Positions 2,064-20,687 of a stretch of DNA of 64,000 nucleotides are shown in pieces. Numbering within the stretch: the stretch's first letter is position 1; the number at the start of each line of letters is the position of its first letter. Origin of the DNA: Bacillus massiliglaciei (GTDB lineage: Bacteria > Bacillota > Bacilli > Bacillales > DSM-1321); assembly GCF_900098925.1 (NCBI RefSeq), contig NZ_LT622359.1:412152-476151 (forward strand), given 5' to 3'. Position numbers and translations under genes: made by a program. The notes under the pieces are model-generated. The model saw only the letters and a program-made list of their open reading frames with translations. It was not told where the DNA came from and ran no database searches.

Positions 2064-3068
2064 ATGAATAGGCCAATTATAGAAGTGAAGAAACTTAACA
2101 CGAGTTTTCGCACGGAAGAGGGAGAGATCCCGGTGGTTAACTCGATAGATTTTCATGTCAATCCTGGGGAAGTATTGGGTGTTGTAGGCGAATCAGGCTG
2201 CGGAAAGAGTGTCACCTCTTTATCCATTATGGGATTGCTGCCTAAGCAGACAGGAAAAATTGAAGGTGAAATTCTTTTTAATGGAAAAAATATTGCCAAT
2301 GCTTCAGAAGCGCTAATGCGGAAAATTAGGGGCAATGAGATAGGAATGATCTTCCAAGAGCCGATGACGAGTCTAAACCCAGTTTTTACAATAGGAGAAC
2401 AGCTGATTGAATCGCTTCGCATACATAGAAAATGGGATAAAAAACAGGCCCGAAAGAAAGCTGTTGAAATGCTTAAAATGGTCGGCCTTGGACGGGCTGA
2501 AGAGCTTATGAAGGAATATCCTCATCAACTGTCCGGCGGGATGAGGCAAAGAGTAATGATTGCGATGGCGATGATATGCGACCCAAAGCTATTGATAGCA
2601 GATGAGCCGACAACTGCCCTGGATGTAACAATACAGGCACAGATTCTCGAGCTCATGAAAAAGTTAAACCAAGATACGGAGACAGCAATCATGATGATTA
2701 CACATGATTTGGGTGTGGTAGCTCAAATGTGTCAGAGAATCATCGTTATGTATGCAGGGAGGATTGTGGAAGAAGGGTCCGTGCAAACGATTTTCCAAAA
2801 TCCGAAGCATCCTTATACAATTGGGCTGATTCAATCTATACCGGATATGAGGACAAAAAAGGACAGGCTCTATTCCATACCGGGCAATGTGCCAAAGCCA
2901 AGTGCTAAACAGCTTGGCTGCCAGTTTGCTCCGCGCTGTGAGCATGCTATGGAGCAATGCCTGAGCAAGACTCCGGACCTGAAGGATTTTGAAGACGGGC
3001 AGAGAGTGCGATGCTGGCTGTATGAAGAGGGGAAAGGGGCAGCGAGGCATGAATCAAACATTAGTTAA
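2064..3068 (+). CDS. dppD: Dipeptide/oligopeptide ABC transporter ATPase, DppD/OppD type
   Basis: This 334-residue ATPase is one of two that power a peptide importer at the cytoplasmic face of the membrane. It has a Walker A (GESGCGKS), an ABC signature (LSGGMRQR), a Walker B ([12 protein letters not shown]) and the C-terminal oligopeptide-family extension with the Cys-containing CQFAPRC segment. GGAAGTGA precedes the ATG. It is the first gene of a D-F-A-B-C operon, the order of the B. subtilis app operon. Its stop overlaps the next start by 20 bp, implying coupled translation. The substrate is inferred from the receptor gene downstream. Confidence 0.93.
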
Positions 3069-4017
3069 AGTTGAAAATTTAAAGAAGCATTTCCCGATCA
3101 AGGGAGGAGTTCTTGGGAAGACAGTTGGTGAAGTGAAAGCAGTTGACGGCTTATCCTTTTCCATTCAAAAAGGGGAGACCTTGGGATTGGTGGGGGAAAG
3201 CGGCTGCGGTAAATCAACGACAGGAAGGCTGCTGCTCAGACTTCTGGAGCCAAGTGATGGGAAGGTATATTTTGAAGGACAGGATATAACAAGCCTGTCC
3301 GCTTCTGAAATGAGAAAGAAAAGAAGGGAAATGCAAATGGTCTTCCAGGATCCATTTGCATCTTTGAATCCCCGTCATACTGTGGAAAAAATTCTTGAAG
3401 AACCGCTGATTGTACATGGAATGAAGAGTAAGGCAGAACGTAAGCAGCGCGTTAAGGAACTGCTTGAGGTAGTTGGTCTGAGCAGTTACCATGCAAAGCG
3501 CTACCCGCATCAATTCAGCGGAGGGCAGCGCCAGAGAATTGGCATTGCAAGGGCATTGGCAGTTAATCCGAAATTAATTATAGCGGATGAGCCTGTATCG
3601 GCTCTTGATGTTTCCATACAGGCACAAGTGTTGAACCTTCTGCAGGATTTACAGGAAGAGTTTGATCTCACTTATCTATTTATTGCTCATGATTTAGGGG
3701 TTGTGCGTCACATATCTGACCGGGTAGGCGTGATGTACCTCGGCCATATTGTCGAACTCTCGGAAAGTGAGGAATTATATGAGAACCCGCTGCATCCTTA
3801 TACACAAGCTCTTCTGTCAGCCGTACCGATACCGGATGTAGAGTATGAGGGGAATCGGGTTGTTCTGGAAGGTGATGTTCCGAGTCCTTCCAATCCGCCG
3901 GCAGGCTGCCCGTTCCATACAAGGTGTCCGAAAGCGATGGATGTTTGCAGTGCAGTGAAGCCGCCTCTTGCGGAGCATGAATCAGGTCACTACGTCGCTT
4001 GCCACTTATATACGTGA
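3049..4017 (+). CDS. dppF: Dipeptide/oligopeptide ABC transporter ATPase, DppF/OppF type
   Basis: This is the second ATPase of the importer, 322 residues from ATG 3049. I prefer this start to an in-frame ATG at 2989 because GGGGAAAGGGG lies just upstream and the conserved family sequence begins at [11 protein letters not shown]. The Walker A is GESGCGKST, the signature is [15 protein letters not shown], and the Walker B is [12 protein letters not shown]. The C-terminal region has the oligopeptide-family Cys pattern (CPFHTRC). It overlaps dppD by 20 bp and is followed 42 bp later by the receptor gene. It is expected to form the DF heterodimer under permeases B and C. Confidence 0.93.
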
Positions 4018-16765: not shown

Positions 16766-16781
16766 TTATGAATGGATTTGA
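16707..16781 (+). CDS. Possible 24-residue peptide with a strong ribosome site
   Basis: TTG at 16707 lies 6 nt after GGAAGGAGGG and opens a frame encoding MREQEGDIINSHPFDEQGVA followed by YEWI. It converges with, and overlaps by 16 bp, the 3' end of the PlcR-like regulator gene. No promoter is evident and I do not recognise the peptide. It could be a real small protein or a chance combination of a purine-rich stretch with a TTG. Confidence 0.25.
   Translation: MREQEGDIINSHPFDEQGVAYEWI
16737..16768 (-). terminator. Terminator of the PlcR-like regulator gene
   Basis: On the minus strand AGCCACTCCCT pairs with AGGGATGGCT (one bulge) and is followed by ATTTATTAT. It sits at the stop codon of the regulator gene. 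Confidence 0.55.
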
Positions 16782-17662
16782 TCTTCAATTTCCCAAGATT
16801 TAAGTTTTTGTTTAATAAATGCAGTAAATCGGTAGTTTTTCTGAAGCTCAAAAAGGAAGAGAGCTTTGGATAAATAATTTTTTGCTTCCGTATAATTCCC
16901 TAGCAATTCGAGATTGTAGCCAAGCTGGTAATGCAGTTCAGCAAGCAAATAGAGATGATCCTCCCGCAGACACCATTTTATGGCATCATAGCAGTACTGT
17001 ATGGATTCCTCGTATTTTAAAAGCCTTGTGAGGACACGTGCGGTGTTATAAAAAAGCCGGGCCCTGATTGATTTATCATTCAGGAAGGGAAGGACTTTTA
17101 AATGATGAAGAGCATCTTTATAGGCAGCCAGTGCTTCCGCATATCTTTTTTCTTCAAAATAGAAAACCCCTCTGGTAAGCAATAATTCAATCTCTCTTTC
17201 CGAATATAATTTCTCGGAGGACTTAGTGAGAGATATTGCTTCATCCAACAGGGAGAGTGCTTTATCTACATTTTTCTTCATTTCATATTCATAAATGGCT
17301 TTATGCCAAAGCAGGATCTGATAGTTCTTATTATTTTGCAGAAACAGGGGATTCTTTTCTTCCACTTTTACAATATCCCGGATATCTTCGTAATTCATAT
17401 TCCTCCGCGCCAATTTAAGCTGATTGAACACTTCTTCTACATAATCCAGTCTTGGTGTCATTCCGATATCGAAGAAGTAGTTCACATCTACCCCCAGCTT
17501 CTGAGAGATCAGATAGAGCGTGGAAGCATAAGGATAAACATCGCCCTTTTCGATCTTGCTGATTTGGGCCTGTGTACAGATTCCTTCGGCGAGCTCACCC
17601 TGTGAAAGACCTGCCTGTTTCCGTAATTCTTTTATTTTTTTTCCGACGGCTGAAAAGTCCAT
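16766..17662 (-). CDS. PlcR-like RRNPP transcriptional regulator (HTH plus TPR)
   Basis: A 298-residue cytoplasmic regulator. The N-terminal XRE-type HTH (residues 6-60) contains LSQGELAEGICTQAQISKIE, close in pattern to PlcR of B. cereus (LTQKQLSENICHQSEVSRIE). It is followed by about five helical TPR-like repeats, the peptide-binding part of the RRNPP family. The length matches PlcR (about 285) rather than NprR or Rap (over 370). AAGGAGAG precedes the ATG. The gene is divergent from a 39-codon secreted peptide gene with a PapR-like ending, which identifies the probable ligand. The members PlcR, NprR and Rgg bind an imported signal peptide and then control promoters. That this one does so with this peptide is inference. 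Confidence 0.88.
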   Translation of the reverse strand: MDFSAVGKKIKELRKQAGLSQGELAEGICTQAQISKIEKGDVYPYASTLYLISQKLGVDVNYFFDIGMTPRLDYVEEVFNQLKLARRNMNYEDIRDIVKVEEKNPLFLQNNKNYQILLWHKAIYEYEMKKNVDKALSLLDEAISLTKSSEKLYSEREIELLLTRGVFYFEEKRYAEALAAYKDALHHLKVLPFLNDKSIRARLFYNTARVLTRLLKYEESIQYCYDAIKWCLREDHLYLLAELHYQLGYNLELLGNYTEAKNYLSKALFLFELQKNYRFTAFIKQKLKSWEIEDQIHS

Positions 17663-17683
17663 ATGGTTCTCTCCTTAATATTC

Positions 17684-17697
17684 CTATAGTTATATTT
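17684..17697 (-). promoter_or_regulatory. AT-rich box A upstream of the PlcR-like gene
   Basis: CTATAGTTATATTT lies 22 bp upstream of the regulator start. Its exact reverse complement is box B before the peptide gene. Read in the direction of each gene, both promoters carry AAATATAACTATAG. It could be the regulator's operator or a shared promoter element. Confidence 0.5.
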
Positions 17698-17790
17698 TTA
17701 TCGGAGAAGCAGAGCATGGTAAGGTAATGAAAGTATTTGGACACGGCTTAGAAAGATAGCCGTAAAAACACGGCCTAACATTGTATGTTT

Positions 17791-17804
17791 AAATATAACT
17801 ATAG
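17791..17804 (+). promoter_or_regulatory. AT-rich box B upstream of the peptide gene
   Basis: AAATATAACTATAG is the exact inverted copy of box A (14 of 14) and ends 53 bp before the ATG of the peptide gene. The 93-bp spacer between the two boxes must hold both divergent promoters. The known PlcR box (TATGNAANNNNTNCATA) is not present in this form. Confidence 0.5.
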
Positions 17805-17857
17805 AATTTATTTCTATCAAAACCAATATTTATAAAAGAAAAAAGGAGGATGTACCT

Positions 17858-17977
17858 ATGAAAAAAAATGTCAAAGGTTTCGTTGTTTCATTTCTTTTAG
17901 TTGCTGGTTTAGTCTTAATTGGCGGCGTGTCTCCTGCAGAATTGCCAAGTGTATATGAGCTGCCGTCTGTCTACTGA
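17858..17977 (+). CDS. PapR-like secreted signal peptide precursor with tandem ELPSVY
   Basis: ATG at 17858 follows AAAGGAGGA at ideal spacing. The 39-residue product has a Lys-rich start (MKKNVKG), a hydrophobic Sec-type segment (FVVSFLLVAGLVLIGG) and the C-terminus SPAELPSVYELPSVY. The B. cereus PapR signal is ADLPFEF; AELPSVY fits the same A-[DE]-L-P-x-x-[FY] pattern, and the hexapeptide is repeated at the very C-terminus. It faces a PlcR-like regulator gene across a shared control region and has its own terminator. I infer export, processing and re-import as a pheromone. The repeated codons differ at every position (GAA/GAG, TTG/CTG, CCA/CCG, AGT/TCT, GTA/GTC, TAT/TAC), so the peptide sequence itself appears selected. 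Confidence 0.85.
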   Translation: MKKNVKGFVVSFLLVAGLVLIGGVSPAELPSVYELPSVY

Positions 17978-18015: not shown

Positions 18016-18056
18016 AAGTCTGCCCCACGAGGATTCTTCTTGCGGCAGACTTTTTC
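18016..18056 (+). terminator. Terminator of the peptide gene
   Basis: AAGTCTGCC pairs with GGCAGACTT across a 19-nt loop and is followed by TTTC. It makes the peptide gene a short monocistronic unit. Confidence 0.85.
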
Positions 18057-18202
18057 GTACCCTCTTTACATCTATTGGCTTCCTTATTCTTTTAAGCATA
18101 TTCCTTTAGTTATAATAGGTAAAGTTTCGTGAGCTGAAGGGATAAATGTTCAGTTTTTTCAGGAAATGGAGCCGCTTACAGCCGCGCAGGCAGAGCGCTT
18201 TT

Positions 18203-18241: not shown

Positions 18242-18571
18242 ATGATGGAAAACGTTTCTATGAAAGTAATACCCTCTTTTTATGACGAGGAATGTGCGAT
18301 TGTTTTTTCGTTCTCCTTCAGTGAGGAAGCGAATAAGATTGGTGAAGCAGTTATCTATACATGCAATGATACAAAGTATACAGGACCTGATCAGTCAGCA
18401 TTGTATTCAGCCCCAAGCTCCTGTGAAAAAATAGCCTATATAAAAAAATTCTCCATTATGGATGAGTATAAGGCTTTGACTATGAAAAAAATCCAGCATT
18501 TTATGAACATAATCGGCATTCAGCGATGTATCAGTGATGTATACGGCAAAGAATTCGGACAGGTAAATTAA
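18242..18571 (+). CDS. Hypothetical 109-residue protein
   Basis: I do not recognise this family. ATG 18242 (or 18245) follows AGAGGTG. The product is cytoplasmic, with no signal peptide or membrane helix. The N-terminal half looks like beta strands (VIPSFYDEECAIVFSFSF) and the C-terminal third like helices (MKKIQHFMNIIG). Four cysteines are scattered without a clear metal motif. It lies just downstream of the PlcR-PapR-like pair, with a strong dyad over its ribosome site and a terminator right after its stop. It is therefore separately controlled; a target of the neighbouring circuit is only a possibility. Confidence 0.6.
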   Translation: MMENVSMKVIPSFYDEECAIVFSFSFSEEANKIGEAVIYTCNDTKYTGPDQSALYSAPSSCEKIAYIKKFSIMDEYKALTMKKIQHFMNIIGIQRCISDVYGKEFGQVN

Positions 18572-18744: not shown

Positions 18745-18842
18745 GATTGTGAATGGCTCCTTTGCTGCATATTCTGTTTAACTAGTACCCCTTTTTTAAC
18801 TGATCAAACATCTTTCATTTATTTTTTTTATGTAAAATATGC

Positions 18843-18856
18843 TTAGAGTTATATTT
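18843..18856 (-). promoter_or_regulatory. Box D, further copy of the AT-rich box
   Basis: TTAGAGTTATATTT matches box A (CTATAGTTATATTT) at 12 of 14 positions. It is oriented toward the candidate small gene at 18610-18744. A less perfect copy (CTTTAGTTATAATA, 11 of 14) lies at 18104-18117. In AT-rich DNA some such matches arise by chance. Confidence 0.35.
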
Positions 18857-19223: not shown

Positions 19224-20687
19224 ATGAGCGGCACAGGTGAAAAGCTGCAAGCACAGACCCATGACCATACAGTTAAACGTGCCAAATTCCAATTTCTTTT
19301 TCCGTTTATGCTGGATGATAAAGAAGACATTGAAAAATTAACGGGAAAATTACGGAAGGAAAACTTTATCTTTTTCGATTTTAAAGATTTGGACCTTCAG
19401 CAGGCCTTCTACGGAGGAGACAAAGTTTCGCACAGGAAGCTCGAAAAATCTTTTATGCCGAATATTGAACCCTTGTTATTCCCTGGCTCACAGCATGATA
19501 AGGAAGGGATTCGCAGATTTTCCAAGAAATTTGAATTGGAATGCCGTTTGACTTCTTCACAGCTTGATACTCCTTTTTTTATAGAATCCACTGATGTTTT
19601 CCTCTGCCCATTCCGGATCGGTATGGTGAACATCCGCGTCCGTCTTCCGGAAAATATTTCTTATCTGGATGCCGTGTCTTTCGGTGACATTTTTCGGGTA
19701 TTAGAGCCGATTACGGAAGATGAAGAGCAAATCGAAGTGATGGCAGGCGGGGAAACATATGAGGAAGTAAAGAAATTTATTTTTAAAAAACTGCTTCCGC
19801 CGATCGATGCCTATTTAGAAGATGATCCGGAGTTAGATCCTTCTTATTTTGGGAGTCTTCCTTTTTTCGTCGATGAAAGGATGTATGTCATCAGTTATAT
19901 CAATCTCGATTCAGACAGTTACATATCAAAAATGGAACTTTACCGGGCAGCAGATCTCGAGGGGCATAGAGTGGATGACGAGAAATATGAAGGTGCAAGG
20001 AACCAGCGATATATAGATCGGTACTGTGAGAATATTGTGTACGACCGCTGGGCAGATGAGACGTATATCATCATGAGTGAATATCATTTTTCCTGCCTCA
20101 CCAAAGCAGAAGGGAAGAAGGAGCAAAATCTGGCAGGTCGTTTATATGGTGAATATTTCTACTCCGTTCTGCTTTTTTATTATTATAAAATCATTTTATT
20201 GAAACTTTCGCATGACCATTCTCAAATTGAAATAGAGAAGGGAAAAAGGAGTACAGAACGTCTGATTTTGATGATTACTCAGTTCACAGCAAAATACTAC
20301 ATACCGGAAGTCAACAGCACGGCCTCGGGGAAAGAGATATTCAGCAAATTGAAAGCAACCTTTCTGATTGATGAACTTTACCGGGATGTAAAGGAAACGC
20401 TTACCTTCCTTTATCAAAATCAAAATAACATATCCGGGAAGAGTATGAACTATTTGCTGCAAATTTTAACGATTTTTACTACGATTTCGGGTATTTTTGG
20501 GATGAATCTTGTCATTGAGGATTGGAAAGGCAAGATGGATTGGGCCAAAATGAATGATTACTCCGTGTTTGAGTGGATTGCGGTATTGGTCACTACCACA
20601 GGTGTGGCCGTATCACTCATTCTTGGTCTCATATTTTTGAAAGACTGGATGGTCGAGAAGAAATCCCGCAAAAAACAAATTTTATAA
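19224..20687 (+). CDS. CorA-superfamily divalent cation transporter
   Basis: A 487-residue membrane protein with a long cytoplasmic N-terminal domain and two C-terminal helices. The CorA signature is present at the end of helix 1: GIFGMNL with G426-M427-N428. Helix 2 (WIAVLVTTTGVAVSLILGLIF) is followed by a basic tail. This topology and the GMN motif define the CorA Mg/Co channel family, although the N-terminal 400 residues are longer and divergent from standard CorA (about 320). GGGAGGGTGG precedes the ATG. The ion is uncertain. A terminator-like leader lies upstream. Confidence 0.8.
   Translation: MSGTGEKLQAQTHDHTVKRAKFQFLFPFMLDDKEDIEKLTGKLRKENFIFFDFKDLDLQQAFYGGDKVSHRKLEKSFMPNIEPLLFPGSQHDKEGIRRFSKKFELECRLTSSQLDTPFFIESTDVFLCPFRIGMVNIRVRLPENISYLDAVSFGDIFRVLEPITEDEEQIEVMAGGETYEEVKKFIFKKLLPPIDAYLEDDPELDPSYFGSLPFFVDERMYVISYINLDSDSYISKMELYRAADLEGHRVDDEKYEGARNQRYIDRYCENIVYDRWADETYIIMSEYHFSCLTKAEGKKEQNLAGRLYGEYFYSVLLFYYYKIILLKLSHDHSQIEIEKGKRSTERLILMITQFTAKYYIPEVNSTASGKEIFSKLKATFLIDELYRDVKETLTFLYQNQNNISGKSMNYLLQILTIFTTISGIFGMNLVIEDWKGKMDWAKMNDYSVFEWIAVLVTTTGVAVSLILGLIFLKDWMVEKKSRKKQIL

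Follow-up and report, generated by a model that had tools for sequence, protein, structure and literature searches.

A probable PlcR-type quorum-sensing circuit with a repeated signal peptide in Bacillus massiliglaciei

We analyzed a 64,000-nucleotide stretch of the genome of Bacillus massiliglaciei, a Peribacillus-type soil bacterium (contig NZ_LT622359.1, positions 412,152 to 476,151; hereafter the window), in which the gene of a regulator with a helix-turn-helix (HTH) and a tetratricopeptide repeat (TPR) domain is divergent from a small gene for a peptide precursor that ends in two copies of the hexapeptide ELPSVY. Comparison with related genomes makes it very likely that this locus is a quorum-sensing circuit of the PlcR type, within the RRNPP family, with a repeated signal peptide. 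Through a short secreted peptide, the pair very probably allows cells to gauge how numerous they are. A sequence-only reading of the window had proposed such a circuit, and the conservation of the pair, the covariation of signal and receptor, and the kinship of the regulator with PlcR support it at the sequence level.

The regulator and its divergent peptide gene

Both open reading frames (ORFs) are present as the sequence-only reading had described them, an HTH-TPR regulator of 298 residues and, divergent from it, a gene of 39 codons with a signal-like N terminus. Their start codons are 195 bp apart in the window, AAGGAGG precedes the peptide ORF, and the ribosome sites of both genes are good as judged by eye. 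The precursor runs from a basic start through a hydrophobic stretch to ELPSVYELPSVY at its C terminus; its Sec-type N terminus was judged by eye and with a hydropathy filter. As the precursor matched no Pfam or NCBIfam model, we assessed it through conservation.

The regulator gave Pfam matches above the cut-offs for HTH_3 (1.2e-12), several TPR models and RNPP_C (2.9e-11; 43.7 bits for a cut-off of 26.5). Among PDB structures, PlcR was the sole full-length sequence match, with an E value of 2.4e-16 for the single protein and of 3.4e-27 for a profile of 47 relatives. A predicted model of the regulator (mean pLDDT 90.3, 17 helices) placed PlcR structures (3u3w, 2qfc and 4fsc) at ranks 1 to 5 in Foldseek, with TM-scores of 0.61 to 0.67 by query length, and ComR, Rgg, PrgX and Rap ranked behind them. 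The closest solved relative of the regulator by sequence, profile and predicted fold is PlcR, which bears out the claim of a PlcR-like regulator. The protein also has the build of an RRNPP (RNPP) receptor, with an N-terminal HTH and a C-terminal TPR domain in 298 residues where about 250 to 500 are expected. The adjacent small propeptide gene of such systems has its counterpart in a conserved ORF with a basic N terminus, a hydrophobic stretch, a ribosome site and putative Sec export.

The sequence-only reading had called for a search for regulator and peptide together in related genomes. We used a genus set of 36 Peribacillus genomes, in which orthologues were defined by at least 60% identity, and 80 named relatives (loci L039 to L118), the best 80 of at least 225 relatives, many of which come from the same genomes. 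The strict peptide filter required LP together with Y, F, H or L as the final residue. The regulator was matched at an E value of 1e-3 or better in 35 of the 36 genus genomes, many of these matches covering the HTH domain only, and 32 genomes hold an orthologue (60 to 100% identity). A divergent peptide ORF starting about 196 nt from the regulator start was present in 29 of the first 30 orthologue loci fetched and in the remaining two (L203 and L204), so that the pair is intact in 31 of 32; the single exception is L011, from a genome with a completeness rating of 87%, where the peptide gene has a frameshift within an A run. Among the named loci, 55 of 80 carry a divergent peptide by the strict filter, and 56 with L090, which passes a relaxed filter. 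Conservation of the divergent pair thus extends over several genera of Bacillaceae. An ORF listing free of any motif gave the same ORFs at that position as the strict filter. The recurrence of the same ORF at the same place across the genus orthologue loci argues that it is not there by chance. Nothing but its small size speaks for a chance ORF holding a chance repeat, and its conservation at a similar place in genus orthologues and named loci refutes that explanation, whose probability we regard as negligible.

In a quick tree of 66 chosen receptors, which has some long branches, nine Peribacillus paralogues at greater distance served as the root. A supported branch (SH-aLRT 99) separates them from the window's receptor type, which comprises 57 rows, those lacking a peptide included. 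A divergent peptide gene is also found in four of the nine outgroup paralogues; the layout is therefore possibly older. tblastn searches of plasmid records (E limit 1e-20) and of phage records, viral contigs not being searched (E limit 1e-10), found only relatives below 60% identity, in 8 of 72,556 and 3 of 50,697 records, respectively, and thus gave no sign of the pair being mobile.

Repeated signal units and their covariation with the receptor

Signal units were compared in 56 precursors, those of the 55 strict-filter loci and that of the window. The precursor carries one unit in 33 cases, two in 16, three in 2, four in 1 and five in 4, so that 23 of the 56 are multi-unit. The two units announced by the sequence-only reading are thus present in the window, but their number is not fixed, ranging from 1 to 5 in relatives, and the repeat is the hexapeptide ELPSVY rather than AELPSVY, as A precedes unit 1 only and Y precedes unit 2. 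The core [E/D]LPxx[Y/F/H] occurs in 45 precursors; eight others are one residue longer (e.g., ELPDNPY), two have ELPPML and one has PLPPVY. Among the cores seen are ELPSVY, ELPGLY, ELPSVF, ELPTQF, ELPTLF, ELPSEY, ELPSVH, ELPTIF, ELPPVY and ELPLMH. On the quick receptor tree, the number of units changed at least eight times, and precursors switched between single and multiple units at least five times.

Within the multi-unit precursors (17 distinct, 372 codon pairs) we counted 184 synonymous and no nonsynonymous differences, the codon pairs being interdependent and the unit-picking pattern itself fixing L and P as well as the final residue's class. Since the differences are silent only, each unit appears to be retained for its amino acids. 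All six codons differ between the two units of the window, which argues for retention at the protein level rather than a recent copy. From species to species, units that share a precursor change in concert, though their DNA does not. Judged from these codons, the repeated units are under purifying selection.

The two units of the window abut without a spacer, as would suit a signal consisting of the undivided double unit ELPSVYELPSVY in place of two hexapeptides. In relatives, however, spacers measure 0 to 10 residues and units number 1 to 5, while the unit itself is constant within a precursor, and we consider an undivided signal quite unlikely.

The sequence-only reading had also proposed that the C-terminal motif should covary with the TPR domain. 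We used a Mantel-type correlation of distances among 41 receptors thinned to more than 6% difference. Peptide-core distance was correlated with TPR distance (r = 0.285, P = 0.0002) and not with HTH distance (r = 0.068, P = 0.21), as proposed, and the partial correlation of TPR and peptide given the HTH was the same (r = 0.285, P = 0.0002). The HTH is strongly conserved and therefore of limited value as a control. With gene 3, a neighboring gene described below, as the background (n = 35), the partial correlation was 0.246 (P = 0.0006) for the TPR domain and −0.057 (P = 0.79) for gene 3.

This covariation bears on whether the small gene might encode a secreted peptide with another job, such as a bacteriocin or a membrane protein, the regulator answering something else. 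The existence of related regulators with no peptide gene would agree with such a role. It is opposed by a core that covaries with the TPR domain and not with the HTH, by a Leu-Pro and aromatic end as in PapR, and by short units that diverge only silently; we hold it to be very improbable.

Several observations weigh against a signaling pair. The sequence-only reading had named homologous regulators without an adjacent peptide gene as a refuting sign, and this sign is partly seen: 24 of the 80 named relatives, with regulators 51 to 61% identical, have no recognizable peptide gene, the remaining 56 carrying one. The 24 are mostly second Rossellomorea copies and a Niallia/Cytobacillus branch, and six of them retain the palindromic box described below within one mismatch. 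The precursor of L006, outside the count of 17, is mixed, with ELPGVY followed by three ELPGVH. Three sorts of precursor run past the last unit (ELPGLYK, ELPSVFTKA and that of L091), so that further trimming would be needed there for a free C terminus. Gene-3 distance also gave a correlation with peptide distance before correction (r = 0.085, P = 0.044, n = 35), and the Mantel P values leave some effects of relatedness.

A palindromic box and the predicted targets

The intergenic region holds a palindromic box, TATTCCTATAGTTATA, with similar sites nearby (Table 1). Allowing up to two mismatches, the pattern TATNNCTATAGTTATA gave seven matches at six places in the window for 0.54 matches expected, and four of the six places belong to this locus. 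In the 36 genus genomes, the pattern TATNCCTANAGTTATA has 79 exact copies, compared with 9 for the reversed control. The space between receptor and peptide gene accounts for 31 of them, none more than 100 nt from the regulator start; another 30 stand ahead of gene 3 or gene 4, at 100 to 1800 nt on the peptide side, and 18 precede an opp-type operon (17 by distance; the last, in genome G008, also belongs to that opp promoter). Outside Peribacillus, by our own division of the loci, the intergenic box was found within one mismatch in 32 of 34 peptide-bearing loci (shuffle mean 0.015). Of the 25 named loci that did not pass the strict peptide filter, 7 have it within one mismatch, L090 among them. 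In all 48 promoters, the best site ahead of gene 3 is 142 to 155 nt away from where the gene-3 match starts; in 33 of them it is within one mismatch (shuffle mean 0.03). The stretch of the degenerate box at 17794..17809 recurs little changed in genus loci; as a box it is weak, the best same-orientation site having 2 to 6 mismatches over the 55 peptide loci. Like the PlcR box of B. cereus, TATGnAnnnnTnCATA (PMC2464732), the box is a 16-bp palindrome with TAT...ATA ends; its core differs, being TATnnCTATAGnnATA here, in a genome that was not scanned for the PlcR box itself.

Gene 3 is present at 50 of the 80 named loci, every one of them peptide-bearing (L090 by the relaxed filter). Its family, of about 90 to 120 residues, is linked with the peptide circuit in several genera, and in L084 it lies on the other side of the regulator. 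It had no Pfam, NCBIfam or PDB sequence match. Its model (pLDDT 80) has a GNAT-like fold with a weak best Foldseek E value of 1.4e-3, which we do not take as a sign of activity because no acetyl-CoA loop motif was seen in the alignment by eye. Gene 4, for a putative membrane protein, was found over most of its length at 17 of the 80 named loci, with a fragment at one more; it had no NCBIfam or PDB match and a Pfam match only below the cut-off (E = 0.55). We presume it to be CorA-like from a GMN motif seen by eye, a label that no family match backs.

The third predicted target is the opp-type operon, with the gene order D, F, B, C, A from position and by eye. NCBIfam models, under curated cut-offs, gave an OppD/DppD-type ATPase and, for the permease part given, Opp4B. 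The box is exact in 17 of 29 opp orthologues and one mismatch off in 3, at −142/−143, and in all 20 box-bearing orthologues OppD is at least 90% identical to the query. In favor of this box are the spacing that it shares with gene 3 and the fact that the genus has no other exact site far from the circuit. Permease-type ATPase genes are present in the window's genome. In the window itself, a second oligopeptide/dipeptide permease-type ATPase pair (about 2064 to 4014), 44 to 47% identical to the boxed OppD, lies about 13 kb from the circuit.

The evidence from boxes has its counterweights. In 15 of the 48 gene-3 promoters the site carries two or three mismatches, and 9 of the 29 opp orthologues, including that of the window's genome, have no box within one mismatch (best 2, L154). 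Control of opp through a box in the window's own genome was dropped, as the site there has five mismatches. Nor did the opp box of the P. simplex clade stand out in conservation from its flanks, 30 of 315 16-mers being equally conserved; as the flanks are about as well conserved, we count it as a single event in a single clade. Finally, a search of the window's genome with the looser one-mismatch box showed no enrichment (7 sites, of which the locus holds 3, versus 11 for the reversed control), and a wider regulon there is unsupported.

By analogy with PlcR-PapR, from which export, cleavage, import, binding and the direction of control are taken, the circuit most probably operates as follows. 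Sec would export the 39-residue precursor, signal peptidase would cleave it behind SPA (residue 27), and the units would be cut apart by an extracellular protease, yielding ELPSVY twice per molecule; the number of repeats would set the signal yield per precursor. ELPSVY would be reimported by an oligopeptide permease and bind in the TPR groove of the regulator. The peptide-bound dimer would then bind the box and activate the peptide gene, in a positive feedback. Gene 3 and gene 4 would be switched on as well, as would the opp importer operon of the P. simplex clade.

The opposite logic, in which the box promoters are repressed by the free regulator until imported peptide lifts the repression, is that of pneumococcal TprA/PhrA. 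The main box, just 16 nt from the regulator start codon, is in a position that suits blocking, and TprA2/PhrA2, also of the PlcR family, is likewise encoded on opposite strands (PMC5436883). Against repression stands the same-orientation box 142 to 155 nt ahead of the gene-3 match and 142 to 143 nt ahead of oppD, since this shared orientation and distance suit an activator bound upstream of the promoter; moreover, PlcR, the closest relative with a solved structure, acts as an activator (PMC2464732). Repression is rather unlikely on balance, although it is the alternative to which we give the most weight, and activation by the peptide-bound regulator is the direction that we prefer.

Table 1. 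Features of the circuit in the window and of the Niallia element in its own loci
Feature	Coordinates	Strand	Remarks
PlcR-type receptor/regulator gene, 298 aa	16766..17662	minus	ATG start; HTH about 1-66, TPR domain about 75-290
Signal-peptide precursor gene, 39 aa, MKKNVKGFVVSFLLVAGLVLIGGVSPAELPSVYELPSVY	17858..17977	plus	ATG start; conserved divergent ORF
Signal unit 1, ELPSVY	17939..17956	plus	
Signal unit 2, ELPSVY	17957..17974	plus	six of six codons silently different from unit 1
Box TATTCCTATAGTTATA (palindrome TATnnCTATAGnnATA)	17679..17694	plus	starts 179 nt 5' of the peptide start codon and is separated by 16 nt from that of the regulator
Degenerate box AAATTCTATAGTTATA	17794..17809	minus	directed toward the regulator gene, whose start codon is 147 nt away
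Terminator-like hairpin and T run	18016..18056	plus	3' of the peptide gene; by eye
Box TATTCCTTTAGTTATA	18099..18114	plus	143 nt 5' of the gene-3 start codon
Gene 3, 109 aa, GNAT-like predicted fold (weak match)	18242..18571	plus	no Pfam/NCBIfam match
Box TATGCTTAGAGTTATA	18838..18853	plus	386 nt 5' of gene 4; similar position in relatives
Gene 4, 487 aa, C-terminal hydrophobic region, GMN motif	19224..20687	plus	no family match
Niallia element, L097	5665-5779	minus	
Niallia element, L098	5642-5749	minus	
Niallia element, L099	5645-5752	minus	
Niallia element, L100	5666-5770	minus	
Niallia element, L101	2977-3073	minus	

Relation to known systems and significance

With PlcR-PapR of the B. cereus group the locus shares an HTH-TPR receptor that matches over its full length in sequence and in fold, and a Sec-type precursor. 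The signal PapR7 is ADLPFEF, in which Pro4, Glu6 and Phe7 are required, Glu6 for PlcR activation (PMC6568020). The signal here has the same Leu-Pro and aromatic (or His) end; it has no fixed counterpart of Glu6, which counts against the PlcR-type reading. Whereas papR lies downstream of plcR in the same direction, the peptide gene here is divergent, precursors carry 1 to 5 units, and the predicted targets are few and different (gene 3, gene 4 and opp). Because of the different layout, box and Glu6 position we class the circuit, from sequence, as a PlcR-type variant and not a member of the B. cereus-type PlcR-PapR systems, in agreement with the sequence-only reading. That reading had also taken the divergent layout as distinctive; it does set the circuit apart from PlcR-PapR, but the opposite-strand pneumococcal TprA2/PhrA2 is a precedent.

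TprA2/PhrA2 of Streptococcus pneumoniae, a PlcR-family regulator with its peptide gene on the opposite strand, resembles the locus in that layout. It differs in its heptapeptide, which starts VDLGLA, and in adjoining a predicted lanthionine-peptide cluster, and the part of its description considered here mentions no repeated unit (PMC5436883). Repeated Phr units are processed and active in Rap-Phr of phages phi3T and phi105 (PMC11343458), although Rap acts on protein targets and is not a DNA-binding regulator. A survey of RRNPPA systems counted up to six propeptide copies in the AimR, NprR, PlcR and Rap subfamilies, with repeats in 3 of 15 oversized PlcR propeptides (PMC9765709), and the precursors described here likewise hold several identical or near-identical mature units. 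Both repeated signals and opposite-strand layouts thus have precedents. The same survey places the Bacillales pheromone gene immediately downstream of the receptor (PMC9765709), a rule that the window's clade contradicts.

RRNPP_detector, which mined both flanks of receptors in genomes, found many receptor-propeptide pairs and 21 new clusters and tallied gene orientation in its Fig. 3 (PMC10075063); Peribacillus and Rossellomorea are absent from its main text. AloR-AloP of Paenibacillus, like the present pair, is a chromosomal receptor-peptide pair found by genome mining, and its peptide gene is immediately downstream (PMC7425212). The Opp importer of B. thuringiensis is under CodY control (PMC4701985). 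Searches of open-license literature for the core hexapeptides, and for the genera with PlcR or quorum sensing, turned up no account of this circuit among the matches listed; Peribacillus was absent from the main texts of the RRNPP papers checked, as was Rossellomorea where asked.

Other circuits were seen beside this one. The window's genome holds a second PlcR-like regulator of 33% identity (G000:C16:615286-616122; L002, L125), and L002 has a co-directional peptide gene directly downstream that encodes AKLPVQH twice. In a set of 16 loci, two of which are orthologues, a peptide was found under either filter in 11. In other Peribacillus paralogues it is divergent with DLPNQH (L189, L190, L191 and L196) or ELPYEH (L198), and downstream with DLPDQH (L194) or GLPPQH twice (L199); L192 has a downstream peptide with GLPAQH/GLPVQH four times (relaxed filter; gene start not found). 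By the strict and relaxed filters, L193, L197 and L200 gave no peptide, and L195 and L201 only chance-like ORFs. On plasmid pBpOF4-01 of Alkalihalophilus pseudofirmus (L208), a PlcR-like regulator has a divergent small ORF ending LDLPYIHT and adjoins YcaO-like and TOMM leader-binding genes, and a Priestia megaterium plasmid (L207) has a downstream small ORF ending MDLPYQH. In Cytobacillus firmus (L065), the same type of HTH regulator (METLDFSVIGNKIKEL...) occurs a second time, 1898 to 999 nt upstream of the regulator. An Rfam scan of the window matched two group II intron domains (RF02001 and RF01998) at its left end (81-380), far from the circuit, and nothing else.

In Niallia-type loci the regulator keeps the box, and the divergent transcript looks noncoding. 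The element there has a 5' hairpin (shortened in L101), a strongly conserved stretch GAGTAGTCC..TTTATCTCC.AATTTTCT that includes an anti-ribosome-site CTCC, and a terminator hairpin, and variants occur in L102 and L094 and perhaps in L078 and L088. From this anatomy our guess is a small RNA. The element had no Rfam match, and RNAalifold on five sequences gave 26 pairs with no compensatory changes and an unfavorable covariation term.

We tentatively suggest, as a possibility short of an even chance, that this Bacillaceae lineage of PlcR-type systems sets its signal dosage by the number of units, from 1 to 5, that the regulator commands its own importer in one clade, closing a loop of production and import, and that in the Niallia/Cytobacillus branch a box-linked small RNA has replaced the signal gene to make an RNA-output regulator. 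The circuit would extend PlcR-type quorum sensing, whose best-known role is that of a virulence switch in the B. cereus group, to soil and plant bacteria, in a family that has a box and a signal alphabet of its own and whose predicted targets are not toxins. For the P. simplex clade, the link to opp predicts a self-reinforcing loop, and the natural series of one to five identical units within one clade may serve as a test of why precursors carry repeats, whether for dosage or as a route to new signals.

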